Assembly (NCBI GenBank): GCA_022736275.1
Contig: DZBJ01000005.1
Coordinates: 64,456 to 128,455 of the forward strand
DNA from: Rikenella microfusus
GTDB taxonomy: Bacteria > Bacteroidota > Bacteroidia > Bacteroidales > VadinHA17
Direction of reading: 5' to 3'
Length of the DNA: 64,000 nt
Made by a program: the position numbers and the translations under genes. Below are positions 45,995-51,637 of the stretch, one piece after another (position 1 is the first letter of the stretch; every line of letters begins with the position of its first letter). The notes below the pieces were generated by a model, which made no database searches, was not told the DNA's origin, and was given only the letters and a program-made list of their open reading frames with translations.

Positions 45995-47113
45995 TCAACT
46001 CCAGACCCCTGGTATCAGGGTGCCGCAGGTGCACTTCCCATTTTTAATTTTGTTCGTGACGATCCGGTAACCGCTCCTGTCCACAACCTTCTCACCGCAT
46101 GACGGGCAGTGAGTATCGTCAAACCCTGCTCCCGGCATGTTACCGAGGTAAACATACTTCAGTCCTTCACCCCGGGCTATCTCCACTGCCTTGTTCAGTA
46201 TGCCGGGAGGAGTGGGCGGGAGATGTTCCAGCTTGTACAGGGGCTGAAACCGGCTGAAGTGAAGCGGCGTGTCAGAGAAACCGTTGGCGGCAAGCCACTT
46301 GCACATCTGCCTGATCTCATCAGGCTTGTCAGTCCAGCCCGGAATGACAAGATTGGTGATCTCGAGCCACACCCCCTCGTCACGATATATCTTCAGGGCA
46401 TCAAGAACCGGTTGCAGCTTTCCTCCGTTAAGCTTAAGGTATGTGCTGTCACTGAACGACTTAAGATCTATATTCGCACCGTCTATGTACCTGCAGAGCT
46501 GCCTGAGCGGTTGCTCCTTAATGTAACCGTTTGATACCATTATGTTCTTTACCCCCTCCTGGTGTGCCAGTTTTGAAGTTTCATAAACGTACTCATAAAA
46601 GGTCACCGGTTCGGAATAGGTATATGCTATAGATCTGCAACTGGCTGCAATGGCTCTCTCAACCACATTCGCGGGAGGCATGTCAAAGTTTTTGGTCTTG
46701 TCGGGCGATGTTTGCGAGATGGTCCAGTTCTGACAGTTGAGGCAGGCCAGGTTGCAGCCTGCGGTGGCAATTGAAAAAGCAGAAGATCCGGGAAGAAAAT
46801 GGTACATCGGTTTCTTCTCGACAGGGTCTGTGTTGGCCGCGCAGGGATTGCCAAAGGCCATAGTATAAAGCTTTGACTTCCTGACGATCCGGTTCCTGCA
46901 GTCACTCAGCTCTCCCTCTTTCAGGGTGCACTCGTTGGGACAGATCATGCAGACCACACCCCGGGCACTCTCCTCCTGGAACATGGCAAGTCTTTCACCC
47001 GGGGCCGGATGCATAGCCCCCAGCGGGAGCGGAGCCACAATGCCTGCAGCAACCGCAAATGACCCCTTCCTGGCAAAATCCCTTCTTGATATCTTTTTTC
47101 CCCTGTTTTCCAA
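45995..47113 (-). CDS. amrS: AmmeMemoRadiSam system radical SAM enzyme with Tat-like leader
   Basis: A 372-residue radical SAM protein of the AmmeMemoRadiSam family; substrate unknown. The SAM-cluster motif is GCNLACLNC (Cys120, 124, 127; CX3CX2C). Four N-terminal cysteines (Cys55, 58, 62, 72, in VVCMICPNECTLKEG and SDCRNR) and two C-terminal pairs (HCPSCGE and KCTCGTL) suggest additional metal sites. Residues 8-33 read ISRRDFARK followed by a hydrophobic stretch and a PLGA site, matching a twin-arginine export signal, which is very unusual for an enzyme that needs SAM and low-potential electrons. The two upstream genes of the operon encode the other system components, also envelope-directed. 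Confidence 0.88.
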   Translation of the reverse strand: MENRGKKISRRDFARKGSFAVAAGIVAPLPLGAMHPAPGERLAMFQEESARGVVCMICPNECTLKEGELSDCRNRIVRKSKLYTMAFGNPCAANTDPVEKKPMYHFLPGSSAFSIATAGCNLACLNCQNWTISQTSPDKTKNFDMPPANVVERAIAASCRSIAYTYSEPVTFYEYVYETSKLAHQEGVKNIMVSNGYIKEQPLRQLCRYIDGANIDLKSFSDSTYLKLNGGKLQPVLDALKIYRDEGVWLEITNLVIPGWTDKPDEIRQMCKWLAANGFSDTPLHFSRFQPLYKLEHLPPTPPGILNKAVEIARGEGLKYVYLGNMPGAGFDDTHCPSCGEKVVDRSGYRIVTNKIKNGKCTCGTLIPGVWS

Positions 47114-47145
47114 TTAGATGCGATTAAAGGAACCGGACCATAAAA

Positions 47146-49572
47146 CTAATGCTTATCCCTCACTGATGCAACAATCGCCGACATGAAAATCAACCCCGCA
47201 ATGATGAAAGCTGCGTTTGCCGTACCTGCCACCGGTACGAGAATTGTCGAAACAAGCATATACCCGAGCGCCGAACCTGCCAGGTCAGAGGCGTAAACAG
47301 CCCCTGTTGCTGATCCTTTGCCTGTGACGGTAAGGATCCTGTAGACTGATCCGGTGATGAAGCCTGCCACGGGAAGCGTAATGAACATGAATGCCAGCAC
47401 GGGCCCCGTGGCGGAGATGACCAGGGCCGGAGCCAGCAACCCGGTTCCTGCATAAATAACCATCAGAATCAGCGCACAGACAGTCAGATTCTTAAATGCC
47501 ATTGACTCCCCCCATGCAGCACCTGCTGCCAGTCCGGCCAAAATGAGGGTGAGAATTACGGCGGACAGCAGATAAATGTTCCCGACAGCCATCTGCATTA
47601 TGAAAATCATTATCATCCCAAAACCTGCCAGTCCGGCTGACGAGGTGAACATGATCATACCTCCCCGGACTGAAAAAATGATCGGAATAACCGTTAGTAC
47701 GACCAACAGGGCAATTATACCGCCCTTCATGCCCATTCGTTCCAGTGAGAGAATATTGGCAAACATTGCAGTGACTGGCCTGAGGGCCGTGTTTTCGCCT
47801 GCCCTCCGGTCAACCTGAGACAGCACCTGCTCGCGTTTCACCCGAAGCTCATTGTCATTGATATAGTCACCGTTGACATAGCTTGTCATAATGCCGCTTT
47901 TTTCAGCCAGGCCAGCCACCGCGCCGTTTACCGGAAGTGGCGATGCCACGGCGTACAGTGATGACCCGGGAATTATGGTGATGTGACTGAAGACTGAGGC
48001 AAGAGCGTTGTACAGGGGTGAGAATCCCCTCCTGTAACTCTCAGGAGAATAATTGTAATAAGGCATCGGAGTACAAAGAAATATGCCGTCAGGCGACAGG
48101 TGTTCCCTGACCAGCCTGAAATACTCTGCCGTGTAGAACCTGCTTACCGCCAGTGTTGATGGAGGGGGGATCAGCTGCAGTACCGCATCATATATCTCAC
48201 CGTCGTTTCTCAGGAAGGAGACGGGGTCTCTGTTTACCACGGTCACCTTCATAGTGCCGCGTACAGTGTCACGGGCTCCTCCGGCAGCAATTATACCCGG
48301 ATCCGGCTCCAGGTAAACCAGCTCTTTAATCATATGTTTGTCAAGCTCTTCAAGGTGCCTGGTGAGGCCACCTGAGATGAGCATCACCCTGTCGTAGCTC
48401 TTTCTCTGGAGAAGGGCATAATGGATGTTCTCCTCGGTGGTAATAATATCACCGCTGAAGAAAAGAGGCCTGTGGTCGTAAAAAATGGTCCTCTCGCCAC
48501 CGTAGGTGCCCGTTGTGATGTTTCCGTACTGGGTGTCGATACTCCTCTCCACCTTCACTCCGTGCAACAGGAGGGTTCTGACATGCAGATCAGGACGGAT
48601 GATTATTGTCATGGCTGCCAGGGGCAGGACCATGACCAGTGCCGATATCCTTAACCATGGCCGGTATCCGAGCAATAGTACGGCAATCACCGAGGAGAGA
48701 ATCAGTATCAGCAGGTAGAGCTGGTAGTTGGGGATGCAGAGAGGCACCGTGAGTGCCGTAACTATTCCGGCTGTCACCGACCCTGCCGTTTCGGCGCTGA
48801 AACTTTTTCCCGGTGATGACCTGTCGGTTGCGTTGCGAAGGCGGGAGATCCTGACAAAAACCAGCGAAGAGATGAAGGTCACCGGGGCAATGCTGACAGA
48901 GATGATTATCAGCATCTGGAAAAAGGAGGGGGTAGCCCCCTGTGTGAGAAGAACCGTATTCATTAGGATAAACAGGAGGGGAGCCAGCGCCGTTCCTGCC
49001 AGCAGGGTCCAGATCATCCTTCCGGGGCTTGCGATGGATGATCTGTTCCCGGTAATCGCCCCTGTGGCTGCTGTGATAAGCCAGATCCAGAGGAAGAGCC
49101 CGGCCCCGGCCTCCGTGCCGCCACCCAGGATTACTGCTTCGCGCATCATTATGAACTGGGAAGAAGAGCTGACGAAACCGGTCAGCAGCAGAAGCGGTAC
49201 CGCGTGGGTGATCCTTGCTGCAGGCGGTGGTTCACCCTGCTCTGCCAGGGCACCGATGATGCGGTCTCTTGCCCTGCCGAAATAGTATCCCAGGTGCCAT
49301 GTGAGGTGGATAAGTGCCGAGAAGGCCATGGCTATGCCGGTCTCGACGTGCCAGCGAAGCACCGGCCCTGAAAATGGAATATCCCACTTGTAGGTGACCT
49401 TCAGGGCCATAAGCAGTCCGAACAATGCTGTTACAATGAATGATGCCAGCAGAATCCAGTTCCAGAAGCGCCGGTGCGATTGCCTGTTGGTAAAACCTGC
49501 TGATGAGAGGTACAGCGAGAACAGGTAAAGCAGAAGAACGGTTACCCCTATGGGAAGAACATGGTAGGTCAT
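47146..49572 (-). CDS. Polytopic membrane protein with a degenerate spermidine-synthase-like domain
   Basis: An 808-residue protein with about nine N-terminal membrane helices, a soluble domain (about 341-600) and about six C-terminal helices. Residues 68-95 place His75, His89 and His93 in a membrane helix pair (LRWHVETG, LIHLTWHL), like a DUF4405/cytochrome-b type haem site. The soluble part has the shape of a spermidine synthase: YGNITTG start, SGGLTRHLEEL (400-410) where SpeE has GGGDG, and LVYLEPDP. However, the catalytic D-x-x-D segment is replaced by YDAVLQLIPPP (461-471). It is probably not an aminopropyltransferase. It sits between the Memo-AMMECR1 gene (8 bases) and amrS (32 bases). 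Confidence 0.72.
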   Translation of the reverse strand: MTYHVLPIGVTVLLLYLFSLYLSSAGFTNRQSHRRFWNWILLASFIVTALFGLLMALKVTYKWDIPFSGPVLRWHVETGIAMAFSALIHLTWHLGYYFGRARDRIIGALAEQGEPPPAARITHAVPLLLLTGFVSSSSQFIMMREAVILGGGTEAGAGLFLWIWLITAATGAITGNRSSIASPGRMIWTLLAGTALAPLLFILMNTVLLTQGATPSFFQMLIIISVSIAPVTFISSLVFVRISRLRNATDRSSPGKSFSAETAGSVTAGIVTALTVPLCIPNYQLYLLILILSSVIAVLLLGYRPWLRISALVMVLPLAAMTIIIRPDLHVRTLLLHGVKVERSIDTQYGNITTGTYGGERTIFYDHRPLFFSGDIITTEENIHYALLQRKSYDRVMLISGGLTRHLEELDKHMIKELVYLEPDPGIIAAGGARDTVRGTMKVTVVNRDPVSFLRNDGEIYDAVLQLIPPPSTLAVSRFYTAEYFRLVREHLSPDGIFLCTPMPYYNYSPESYRRGFSPLYNALASVFSHITIIPGSSLYAVASPLPVNGAVAGLAEKSGIMTSYVNGDYINDNELRVKREQVLSQVDRRAGENTALRPVTAMFANILSLERMGMKGGIIALLVVLTVIPIIFSVRGGMIMFTSSAGLAGFGMIMIFIMQMAVGNIYLLSAVILTLILAGLAAGAAWGESMAFKNLTVCALILMVIYAGTGLLAPALVISATGPVLAFMFITLPVAGFITGSVYRILTVTGKGSATGAVYASDLAGSALGYMLVSTILVPVAGTANAAFIIAGLIFMSAIVASVRDKH

Positions 49573-49580
49573 GGCTCCTT

Positions 49581-51119
49581 CTACTCCCCGAAGACATAGG
49601 CTTCATAGACAAAGATTTCAGTACCCTTGTCCTTCCACCCGTCCCAGCCTATCCCTGCTTTGTCACGGGCACAGTACCCGAGGAACTGCTCCACACTCCA
49701 ACCTCTCTCCTGTGCAACCTGAGGAAGGAGGGTGCCCGACCTGAATCCCTGTTTCAGATAGATGCCGTGCTTTCCGATTTTAATCTCACTTATATCACTG
49801 ATTTTCTTCATGGGGCCGAGCACCGATATCTCAAGATGTATTGAGGGATATTCGGCTGATGTAAGGGCACTGAACCTCGGGTCTCCGAAAGCCGCCTCCC
49901 GGGCCATGTCTGCAACGACTTCATGTAACGGGTCAGGCGAAGTAAAACGACCGATGCAGCCACGCAGTTCACCATCGATGGTAATCGTAACAAATGCTCC
50001 CAGCGGCTCCGTGAGCCTGGGAGTCAACCTTGAAGCAGGCGGGGTGGCAGCCTGGACGGTGCCTTTCCATCTTGAAGAGATGGCTTCGCGGGCGATGCCG
50101 AGCAGTGTACCCTTTTCTTCTGCTGTAAGTACAAAATCATCATTGCCGGAGGCTCCCTCTCCCTTAACATTCTTATTACCAGTTGTTTCCTTGTTCTCCT
50201 TCAGTGGCTTATGCTCCGCCACAATGGCGTTGTACCCGACCACCTCATCACGGTCACCCCGCGGGGAGTCGCCTGAGTTGGTGTAACCGACATTCCTGAA
50301 TGCCACCCCGTCACTGTTTTCTGCAAGATAAAGCAGTACCAGTCCTGCAGGCCAGCCGCACATTGCCGTTGCAAGATTCCCGGTGCCGGAGGCCTCAATA
50401 CTCCTGATGGTCTTAAGGAAACTGTCCGGGTCACCCTTAACAATGGCATCGCTGGCGAGTCTGTCCACGCGGCATGCATCCTCATAGGAAGGGTAGTGGG
50501 AGAAATCGCTGCTGATAATGAATAGATTACGGTCATTGAACCAGGGCTGCAGGCCTGAGGCCACGGCCTTGAGAACGCTTGTGTTCCGGGTCCCGATAAG
50601 TATTGGCACAATATCCGGGGTTTTGTTAAAATGATACTGAATGAACGGCAGCTGAACCTCGAGGGAGTGCTCGGGACCGTGTGCCTCATCCTTTTCAAGG
50701 AACCACTTGTTGATTGACTTGAGTTTCTCTCCTATATCCTTGTTGACCTGCAATGTTCCCAGAGGTGTGACCAGGTTACCCGACGTGAATACGGCGGCGC
50801 CCTCGAAGGCATACCTGTGACTTACACCAATAAGAAAGATGTTATCATAGACGGCATCAGCGGGCACAGCTGCAAAACCCCGGACAGCGGTTCTTCCCGA
50901 ATAGACATATCCGGCATGCGGCACCAGAAGCGCCCTTACCTGTGCACCGGGCTGCGGGCTGCCGGCCCCCGCAAAGTACCCCGCCAGTTCAGTCCTGAGC
51001 TGTGTGCTCCCGGAAGGATAAAAACTCCCGGCTACCGCAGGCTGTCTGTCGCGACCCTGTCCGAATATGTTCATAAGCGGAATTATTAACGTAATCAGGA
51101 TGAGACTAACCGTTTTCAT
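49581..51119 (-). CDS. Fused Memo-AMMECR1 protein (AmmeMemoRadiSam components B and A) with signal peptide
   Basis: A 512-residue protein. Residues 1-21 form a signal peptide (MKTVSLILITLIIPLMNIFG). Residues about 25-300 are a Memo domain: RQPAVAGSFYP, LVPHAGYVYSG (His68), GPEHSLEVQLPF (His151), ISSDFSHYP (His208) and AMCGWPAG (Cys254), the residues that build Memo's metal site. A charged linker (300-330) leads to an AMMECR1 domain (about 332-512) with the hallmark LRGCIG (385-390), FGDPRF, LEISVLGPM and QEGWSVEQFL-like RGWSVEQFL. Memo and AMMECR1 are normally cytoplasmic, so the export signal is noteworthy. It is the first gene of the operon with the membrane protein and amrS. Confidence 0.9.
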   Translation of the reverse strand: MKTVSLILITLIIPLMNIFGQGRDRQPAVAGSFYPSGSTQLRTELAGYFAGAGSPQPGAQVRALLVPHAGYVYSGRTAVRGFAAVPADAVYDNIFLIGVSHRYAFEGAAVFTSGNLVTPLGTLQVNKDIGEKLKSINKWFLEKDEAHGPEHSLEVQLPFIQYHFNKTPDIVPILIGTRNTSVLKAVASGLQPWFNDRNLFIISSDFSHYPSYEDACRVDRLASDAIVKGDPDSFLKTIRSIEASGTGNLATAMCGWPAGLVLLYLAENSDGVAFRNVGYTNSGDSPRGDRDEVVGYNAIVAEHKPLKENKETTGNKNVKGEGASGNDDFVLTAEEKGTLLGIAREAISSRWKGTVQAATPPASRLTPRLTEPLGAFVTITIDGELRGCIGRFTSPDPLHEVVADMAREAAFGDPRFSALTSAEYPSIHLEISVLGPMKKISDISEIKIGKHGIYLKQGFRSGTLLPQVAQERGWSVEQFLGYCARDKAGIGWDGWKDKGTEIFVYEAYVFGE

Positions 51120-51178: not shown

Positions 51179-51637
51179 TCAGATCAGAACGATATTTTCC
51201 TTCAGGGTATTGCCTTCATCATCAATGCCATACAGCCTGATTCCCACGCTGCAGGTGGCGTCAGCCGTGACATCCAGGAACGGGGAAAGTGATTCTCTTA
51301 CATCCTCCTCGCCCATGGAGTCATACTCCTCGATATCAAAGTAGAGATGCACAAAAAGTATATGATCGTTCTTTTTGATTTTCGTCAGTACCTTCAATAT
51401 CTTTCCCATCCATATGACAGAGGAGGTATTGAAATAATCGACGTTGAATTTCAGATTTGTGCTTTCTGCCGGGTTCTTGGCATATTCCGAAGCCCACTTG
51501 TAGAGAGGCTCAAAGAAACCTGAAGCATTCTCAGGCAACGATTTGCCTGTGAAGGCAAGATTGCCGGTCCCGGCAGTAAAACTGACCTGCGGTGTCTTGG
51601 AGGTTGCCTCAATCCTGATATCCTGTAGTTTTACCAT
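51179..51637 (-). CDS. siaC: SiaC-family (DUF1987) regulatory phosphoprotein
   Basis: A 152-residue protein of the DUF1987/SiaC family. In Pseudomonas SiaC is phosphorylated on a Thr by SiaB and dephosphorylated by SiaA, and controls a diguanylate cyclase. The family core is visible: NFxVDYFNTSSVIWMGKIL with the phosphosite region YFNTSS (about residues 68-73), followed by ILFVHLYFDIEEYDSMGEEDV. No SiaB-like kinase or SiaA phosphatase gene is adjacent, and the histidine kinase 13 kb away is not of that type. The partner is therefore unknown here. Confidence 0.85.
   Translation of the reverse strand: MVKLQDIRIEATSKTPQVSFTAGTGNLAFTGKSLPENASGFFEPLYKWASEYAKNPAESTNLKFNVDYFNTSSVIWMGKILKVLTKIKKNDHILFVHLYFDIEEYDSMGEEDVRESLSPFLDVTADATCSVGIRLYGIDDEGNTLKENIVLI

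Follow-up and report, generated by a model that had tools for sequence, protein, structure and literature searches.

Radical S-adenosylmethionine (SAM) enzymes are regarded as cytoplasmic, since the cytoplasm is where SAM, reductants and the assembly of their clusters are found. In the cytosolic AmmeMemoRadiSam systems such an enzyme goes together with Memo and AMMECR1 domains. Here we describe three genes from Rikenella microfusus that encode the same three domain families together with export signals and a membrane protein. The genes lie in a stretch of 64,000 nucleotides, called the window throughout (assembly GCA_022736275.1, contig DZBJ01000005.1, positions 64,456 to 128,455 of the forward strand), and all coordinates given without a locus name refer to it. 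We read the set as an extracytoplasmic AmmeMemoRadiSam variant whose membrane protein would handle SAM or a SAM-like nucleoside outside the cytoplasm, and we put the probability of this reading, location and SAM handling together, at about 0.5.

For human MEMO1, excerpts of PMC11081632 give H49, H81 and C244 as metal ligands and describe its primary molecular function as still unknown. Fungal NHMT, the nearest tested analogue of the membrane protein, is presented in excerpts of PMC10349129 as a protein of the endoplasmic reticulum (ER) with seven helices followed by a synthase-like methyltransferase domain, in which Ile replaces the acid that binds decarboxylated SAM; the authors discuss limited SAM in the ER. 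Burroughs et al. 2019 (10.1074/jbc.RA119.007595) is cited for Memo-Ammecr1 systems in an excerpt of PMC7159879. The name AmmeMemoRadiSam occurred in five of the papers searched, a single time in each. Our literature searches found no paper naming two of AMMECR1, 'Memo-like protein' and spermidine synthase together and, among the matches listed, no clear case of a periplasmic or Tat-exported radical SAM enzyme (Tat, twin-arginine translocation). Priority is unsure; Burroughs et al. 2019, on Memo contexts, may already mention part of the system.

Gene set and family membership

All three genes are on the minus strand, with the Memo-AMMECR1 fusion gene (49581-51119, 512 amino acids, from the open reading frame (ORF) and domain profiles) followed by the membrane-protein gene (47146-49572, 808 amino acids, from the ORF, domain profiles and a structure model) and the gene for a radical SAM enzyme of the AmmeMemoRadiSam family TIGR04337 (45995-47113, 372 amino acids, TTG start). 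The gaps are 8 bases between the fusion and the membrane gene (49573-49580) and 32 bases between the membrane gene and the radical SAM gene (47114-47145). These ORF coordinates agree with the original prediction of three closely spaced genes on one strand. Its description of a Memo-AMMECR1 fusion with a signal peptide and a radical SAM enzyme with an RR leader also held, as both proteins passed their family models, the fusion has an N-terminal signal sequence and the leader MENRGKKISRRDFARKG is present in the enzyme. The membrane protein was correctly called polytopic, but its spermine/spermidine-synthase domain and major facilitator superfamily (MFS) fold had gone unreported.

Domain profiles were scored against Pfam and, for TIGR04335, TIGR04336 and TIGR04337, against the NCBI curated cut-offs. 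The 512-amino-acid protein matched Memo (PF01875) with 180 bits and AMMECR1 (PF01871) with 171 bits. Its Memo part passed TIGR04336 (224.1 bits, cut-off 26), its AMMECR1 part passed TIGR04335 (163.5 bits, cut-off 99) and the 372-amino-acid protein passed TIGR04337 (334.2 bits, cut-off 220). The Memo domain spans residues 25-300 (50220-51047, minus strand), where H68, H101 and C254 correspond in the alignment to the metal ligands of MEMO1, and the AMMECR1 domain spans residues 339-510 (49590-50105, minus strand) and retains the RGCxG motif. Among the exported fusions H68 and H101 were each kept in 66 of 67 sequences, C254 in 65 of 67 (two have Asp) and RGCxG in 66 of 67, the last with one gap. 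The radical SAM core, residues 116-268 (46310-46768, minus strand), carries CxxxCxxC at C120, C124 and C127, and these cysteines were conserved in 69/69 sequences. With cluster cysteines, Memo ligands and RGCxG all retained, the fusion and the radical SAM enzyme look like working enzymes. On all the sequence tests applied, the system belongs to AmmeMemoRadiSam, of which it is an exported variant.

Conserved linkage and export signals

Conservation was assessed by searching 296 genomes of the phylum with the membrane protein. Seven strong matches were obtained (E 1.5e-29 or better, the window itself included), and all seven adjoin Memo-AMMECR1 and radical SAM genes, with the enzyme gene interrupted by the contig end in genome G097 and other ORFs intervening in the set of G078. 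Another 22 weaker matches had no partner within 1.5 kb on either side. Searching named genomes with a profile built from three sequences yielded 129 relatives, and the counts that follow use the best 80 of these 129, with locus contents counted by tblastn. All four domains were found at 52/80 loci and at least one partner at 75/80. Where at least 3.5 kb was available on both sides, 32 of 39 loci hold all parts and 27 of 39 have the order and strands of the window, Memo, AMMECR1, carrier and radical SAM enzyme. No radical SAM gene was visible at 14 of the 80 loci. Six of these are truncated by a contig edge, within the carrier gene or immediately past it, and a whole-genome search for the other eight found a leader-bearing radical SAM enzyme in every case (as a fragment only in G299). 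At a ninth locus, L203, the enzyme directly adjoins the carrier. Because the same set recurs at all seven strong matches and at most of the 80 further loci, and partners are lacking at the 22 weaker matches, the linkage of the trio goes beyond chance. By their titles the 80 loci belong mostly to Bacteroidota and Ignavibacteria, with others from Terriglobia/Acidobacteria, Syntrophales, Spirochaetes, Phycisphaerae, Omnitrophota, Chlorobiota and one Woesearchaeota bin. As most of the genomes are metagenome bins, isolated odd taxon labels may reflect mis-binning. The set is also present in a cultured isolate, Mangrovibacterium lignilyticum BM_7 (L212).

The phylum sample also held 69 other radical SAM loci at which the membrane gene is absent, here called unlinked; among these, L143 lies at the end of a contig and is not a locus of its own, being probably part of the linked enzyme of G097. 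We compared the N-termini of linked and unlinked enzymes. The enzyme of the window starts with a Tat-like leader of about 35 residues containing S-R-R-D-F-A-R (residues 1-35, 47009-47113, minus strand), in line with the Tat motif S/T-R-R-x-F-L-K and its moderately hydrophobic stretch. A Tat-like rule was passed by 67 of 71 linked enzymes, 57 with K-R and 10 with R-R (the window copy, SRRDFAR, among the latter), and two more have a leader by eye, one with T-R, giving 69/71; the two remaining, both from Omnitrophota, lack a leader. The consensus is [S/T/N]-[K/R]-R-[E/D/Q]-F-[L/I/V]-[K/R], with Phe in 65 of the 67 that passed. The linked set counts a 109-amino-acid piece from L214, which was excluded from alignment A6 as apparently a duplicate contig of L034, the two being equal in length. 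Unlinked enzymes were called at 65 of the 69 loci, and one of the 65 passed the same rule, through a match that falls within the domain, beyond its first Cys motif. Two of those called (L102, L116) have no N-terminus and three uncalled ones were read by eye, leaving L143 as the fourth uncalled locus, and none of the resulting 66 unlinked enzymes with a visible N-terminus has a Tat-like leader. A looser pattern also picked out three unlinked enzymes (L135, L138, L141), with matches in long extensions at the 5' end of their ORFs, and all three fail the stricter rule. Background was estimated from neighbouring ORFs of at least 150 amino acids, 16/496 of which pass. TatC was found in all seven genomes of the phylum sample that have the exported set.

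The fusion carries a Sec-type signal sequence at about residues 1-20 (51060-51119, minus strand, from the sequence). Among fusions with a complete 5' end, 57 of 58 have a strongly hydrophobic leader before the domain, and the exception has masked bases. A strict lipobox occurs in 18 of 60 fusions, some of the 60 being cut at the 5' end, and the signal is lipoprotein-like in many orthologues, the window copy not being one of them. At two loci of one genus, L037 (11068-12312) and L038 (11839-13080), the radical SAM enzyme has, close behind the Tat-like leader, a CxxCH motif of the kind that serves c-type heme attachment, and a cytochrome c assembly protein was found in all seven genomes checked. 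CxxCH was rejected as a general trait of these enzymes; only these two have it near the leader, and other occurrences belong to the Cys region near the C-terminus (residues 337-388).

In a FastTree phylogeny, 70 linked radical SAM enzymes and one unlinked enzyme (L111, genome G160) were separated from the rest by a branch whose SH-like support is 98. All seven phylum-sample genomes with the exported set carry a second, leaderless radical SAM enzyme, and six of them also carry a second, separate Memo and AMMECR1, so that these six have the exported set in addition to a full set of the cytosolic type. The genome of the window (96% complete) has one Memo-AMMECR1, the exported one, and an orphan leaderless radical SAM enzyme (G000:C45:111773-112750; L033 7759-8757); no second Memo or AMMECR1 was found in it. 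Third, divergent Memo copies scoring 71-80 bits occur in four genomes (G259:C17, G097:C36, G039:C26, G078:C16).

No fourth dedicated partner was found, and the commonest recurrent neighbour family is present at 11/80 loci. Four loci have near the trio, on the opposite strand, a protein with a Tat-like leader that we take to be DUF362-like (L191 4170-5054 and three similar). In the window a SiaC-family protein (PF09345, above cut-off) is encoded at 51179-51637, 59 bases upstream of the fusion gene and on the same strand.

A probable carrier with a synthase-like domain

The 808-amino-acid membrane protein contains a spermine/spermidine-synthase domain (PF01564, 29.4 bits, cut-off 22.9, residues 381-500). 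An AlphaFold2 model built from 86 sequences (pLDDT 85.8, pTM 0.86) has membrane helices flanking a soluble domain, residues 327-612, on both sides. Model and topology give a seven-helix N-terminal half of the carrier at residues 124-324 (48601-49203), the spermidine-synthase-like domain at 327-612 (47737-48594) and the helices of the C-terminal half at 617-807 (47152-47724), all on the minus strand. VIA-align of Foldseek matches aligned the model with VMAT2 over 326 residues (Z 26.6, root-mean-square deviation (rmsd) 3.6) and with NarK over 336 residues (Z 24.6, rmsd 3.3), and the soluble domain with thermospermine synthase over 259 residues (Z 23.2, rmsd 2.8). On the model, the protein has the helix arrangement of an MFS carrier, is predicted to transport a substrate and holds a spermidine-synthase-like domain between the two membrane halves. 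A positive-inside count that placed seven helices before the domain, with the last long helix of the protein (755-807) split at about residue 778, gave a mean of 14.2 Lys and Arg in loops assigned inside and 2.5 in those assigned outside. All 86 sequences agree, so the synthase-like domain is predicted to face the periplasm.

The residues of the domain do not fit an aminopropyltransferase. The acid of the GxG[D/E]G motif, which binds decarboxylated SAM according to excerpts of PMC10349129, is at position 403 and is lost in 86/86 sequences, replaced by I, V, L, M, F, T or Y. Shorter relatives from the phylum sample (498-567 amino acids) keep D or E in 16/16 examined, a count that covers 16 of the 22 weaker matches and leaves L017, L018, L029, L030, L031 and L032 outside. 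The first Asp of the DxxDP motif (position 467), which we take to be catalytic in aminopropyltransferases, is Asn in 69 of 86 sequences, Asp in two and Leu in the window. As these acids are lost, spermidine synthesis was rejected as a function. Position 422 is Glu in 81 and Asp in four of the 86, and Asp 449 is kept in 85. We take the first to be the ribose-binding acid; the retention of both makes a nucleoside pocket in this domain plausible.

Ahead of the carrier, residues 1-106 (49255-49572, minus strand) form a three-helix module with H33, H75, H89 and H93, a candidate b-type cytochrome. It is present in 28 of 86 membrane proteins and stands as a separate gene of about 110 amino acids beside a module-less member at L172 (7625-7957), L176 (7597-7932) and L209 (5549-5878). 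The histidines are well kept (H33 and H89 in 31/31, H93 in 30/31, H75 in 29/31). Profile matches with E up to 0.1 lean to b-heme families, with DUF4405 in 11/29, cytochrome b561 in 6/29 and ferric reductase in 5/29; those of the window module itself all fall under cut-off. The module may be a heme-binding electron carrier.

Proposed function, rival explanations and comparison with known systems

The leader, the signal sequence, the topology and the conserved linkage all point outward, and from these sequence features we consider an extracytoplasmic location of the system quite probable. The radical SAM enzyme, having a Tat-type leader, would probably be folded and loaded with its clusters inside and then exported, and Memo-AMMECR1 would be exported through its Sec signal, often of the lipoprotein type. 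The periplasm-facing synthase-like domain, no longer an aminopropyltransferase, may bind SAM or a nucleoside derived from it. The carrier, for its part, may move SAM or a nucleoside product across the membrane, a role we infer from what the radical SAM enzyme requires and from the resemblance of the domain to a synthase. The exported enzyme would then act on or with Memo-AMMECR1, which probably binds iron, and in about one third of the homologues the four-histidine module may feed electrons into the reaction. That SAM itself is the exported molecule we consider doubtful. It is rather unlikely that the set forms a self-contained radical SAM system outside the membrane, in which Tat exports the enzyme with its clusters in place, the MFS carrier delivers SAM via the synthase-like receptor domain and a membrane cytochrome supplies electrons in some members.

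If such a self-contained system were real, radical SAM chemistry would take place in a compartment not regarded as containing SAM, and the carrier would, to our knowledge and with no search aimed at this point, be the first bacterial SAM exporter of MFS fold. The pairing of a leader-bearing radical SAM enzyme with a dedicated carrier that has an outer domain resembling a SAM enzyme predicts the passage of SAM, or of a product made from it, through the inner membrane. The predominant K-R leaders, if functional, would widen the definition of a Tat signal, and the transporter-like partner may reveal the small molecule of Memo and AMMECR1, giving a new handle on both.

Several observations weigh against this reading. 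Periplasmic SAM is not established, we know of no SAM transport by this family of membrane proteins and an MFS fold by itself names no substrate. K-R is rare among proven Tat signals. The membrane gene stands alone at 5/80 loci, four of them in genomes with a leader-bearing radical SAM enzyme elsewhere. Leaderless enzymes occur within the exported clade at L222 (5627-6601) and L223 (7977-8951), both Omnitrophota, and at L111 (5989-6990) of G160, from the phylum of the window; the FastTree run warned of long branches, L111 among these. All three genomes still have a signal-bearing Memo-AMMECR1 fusion, in the case of L111 on another contig (L224 4536-6038), suggesting that export of the radical SAM enzyme is not essential in every member. 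Unrelated families also match the four-histidine module, with Oxidored_q2 found in 5/29 and giving the best single E-value (3.1e-5), and Foldseek gave the module no fold match at E 0.001, with hydrogenase cytochrome b among the weak matches only.

The original prediction had all three parts directed to or across the membrane, and had looked to orthologues for export signals and for a membrane gene that stays beside the other two. Both were found as a rule, with signals in nearly all orthologues and conserved linkage of the trio, and export or membrane signals are present in all three parts; the claim fails for the radical SAM enzyme at the two Omnitrophota loci and in the one genome of the same phylum. 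It had also offered the membrane protein as anchor, substrate handler or electron conduit. A synthase-like domain on an MFS fold favours a handler rather than a bare anchor, and a conduit is suggested by the module found in about a third of the homologues.

Three other explanations were weighed. The membrane protein could be a periplasm-facing SAM-dependent methyltransferase, like NHMT, that acts on a secreted protein or on the product of the system while the carrier helices anchor it or pass SAM. Seven helices, a synthase-like domain and the loss of the acid, here in all 86 membrane proteins, are common to both. NHMT, as described in excerpts of PMC10349129, is without a second membrane half, whereas both halves form the MFS fold here, and no recurrent fourth gene offers itself as a methylation target. 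We regard this explanation as unlikely. The leader could instead act poorly or not at all as a Tat signal and only hold the radical SAM enzyme against the cytoplasmic side of the membrane, with the chemistry cytoplasmic and the carrier exporting its product to Memo-AMMECR1. This would agree with the dominance of K-R, with the MFS fold and with the general cytoplasmic location of SAM and strong reductants. Against a mere tether, the whole SRRxFLK-type context is kept, including the Phe, ten leaders have R-R with that of the window among them, and the CxxCH of the L037 and L038 enzymes follows the leader, c-type heme attachment taking place outside. We consider a tether distinctly unlikely.

We hold it equally improbable that the radical SAM enzyme matures Memo-AMMECR1, in the cytosol before export in some lineages and outside in others, with the membrane protein as an assembly or transport partner. 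Among solved structures, sequence search found only pyruvate formate-lyase (PFL)-activating enzymes as relatives of the radical SAM enzyme, and these modify a protein; the leaderless enzymes of L222, L223 and G160, which coexist with an exported fusion, would also fit. However, Memo and AMMECR1 retain active-site residues of their own and no strict glycyl-radical motif is present. The likeness to PFL-activating enzymes and the VVGY stretch that ends Memo, which we liken to the RVSGY motif of glycyl-radical enzymes, had prompted a glycyl-radical reading of Memo. The Gly is kept in 67/67 exported fusions. This was rejected as the main reading, as the Arg before VVGY varies, one Memo linked to a radical SAM enzyme has VVSY and human MEMO1 aligns SVSY.

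Known systems resemble the exported set in part. PFL-activating enzymes, with 245 residues, are shorter than the radical SAM enzyme and their alignment is confined to the core region. Cytosolic AmmeMemoRadiSam shares all three domain families above the NCBI cut-offs, with metal and cluster ligands kept, whereas the exported set has export signals, a fused Memo and AMMECR1 and a dedicated membrane gene; the fusion is also seen at two leaderless AmmeMemoRadiSam loci (L080, L081). The seven-helix polyamine aminopropyltransferase-like proteins (PRK03612/NF002956, and the fused MFS/spermidine synthase NF037959) likewise have a membrane half followed by a spermidine-synthase domain. When seven members of our family were scanned, four passed the NF037959 cut-off, with the protein of the window below it, and scores for PRK03612 were far under the cut-off, at best 208 of 472 bits. 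Unlike these proteins, the membrane protein described here has a second membrane half after the domain and has lost the acid for decarboxylated SAM. Fungal NHMT shares that loss and is found in the secretory pathway, and it differs in having one membrane half and, so far as the excerpts of PMC10349129 go, in being a fungal protein for which no such gene partners are described.

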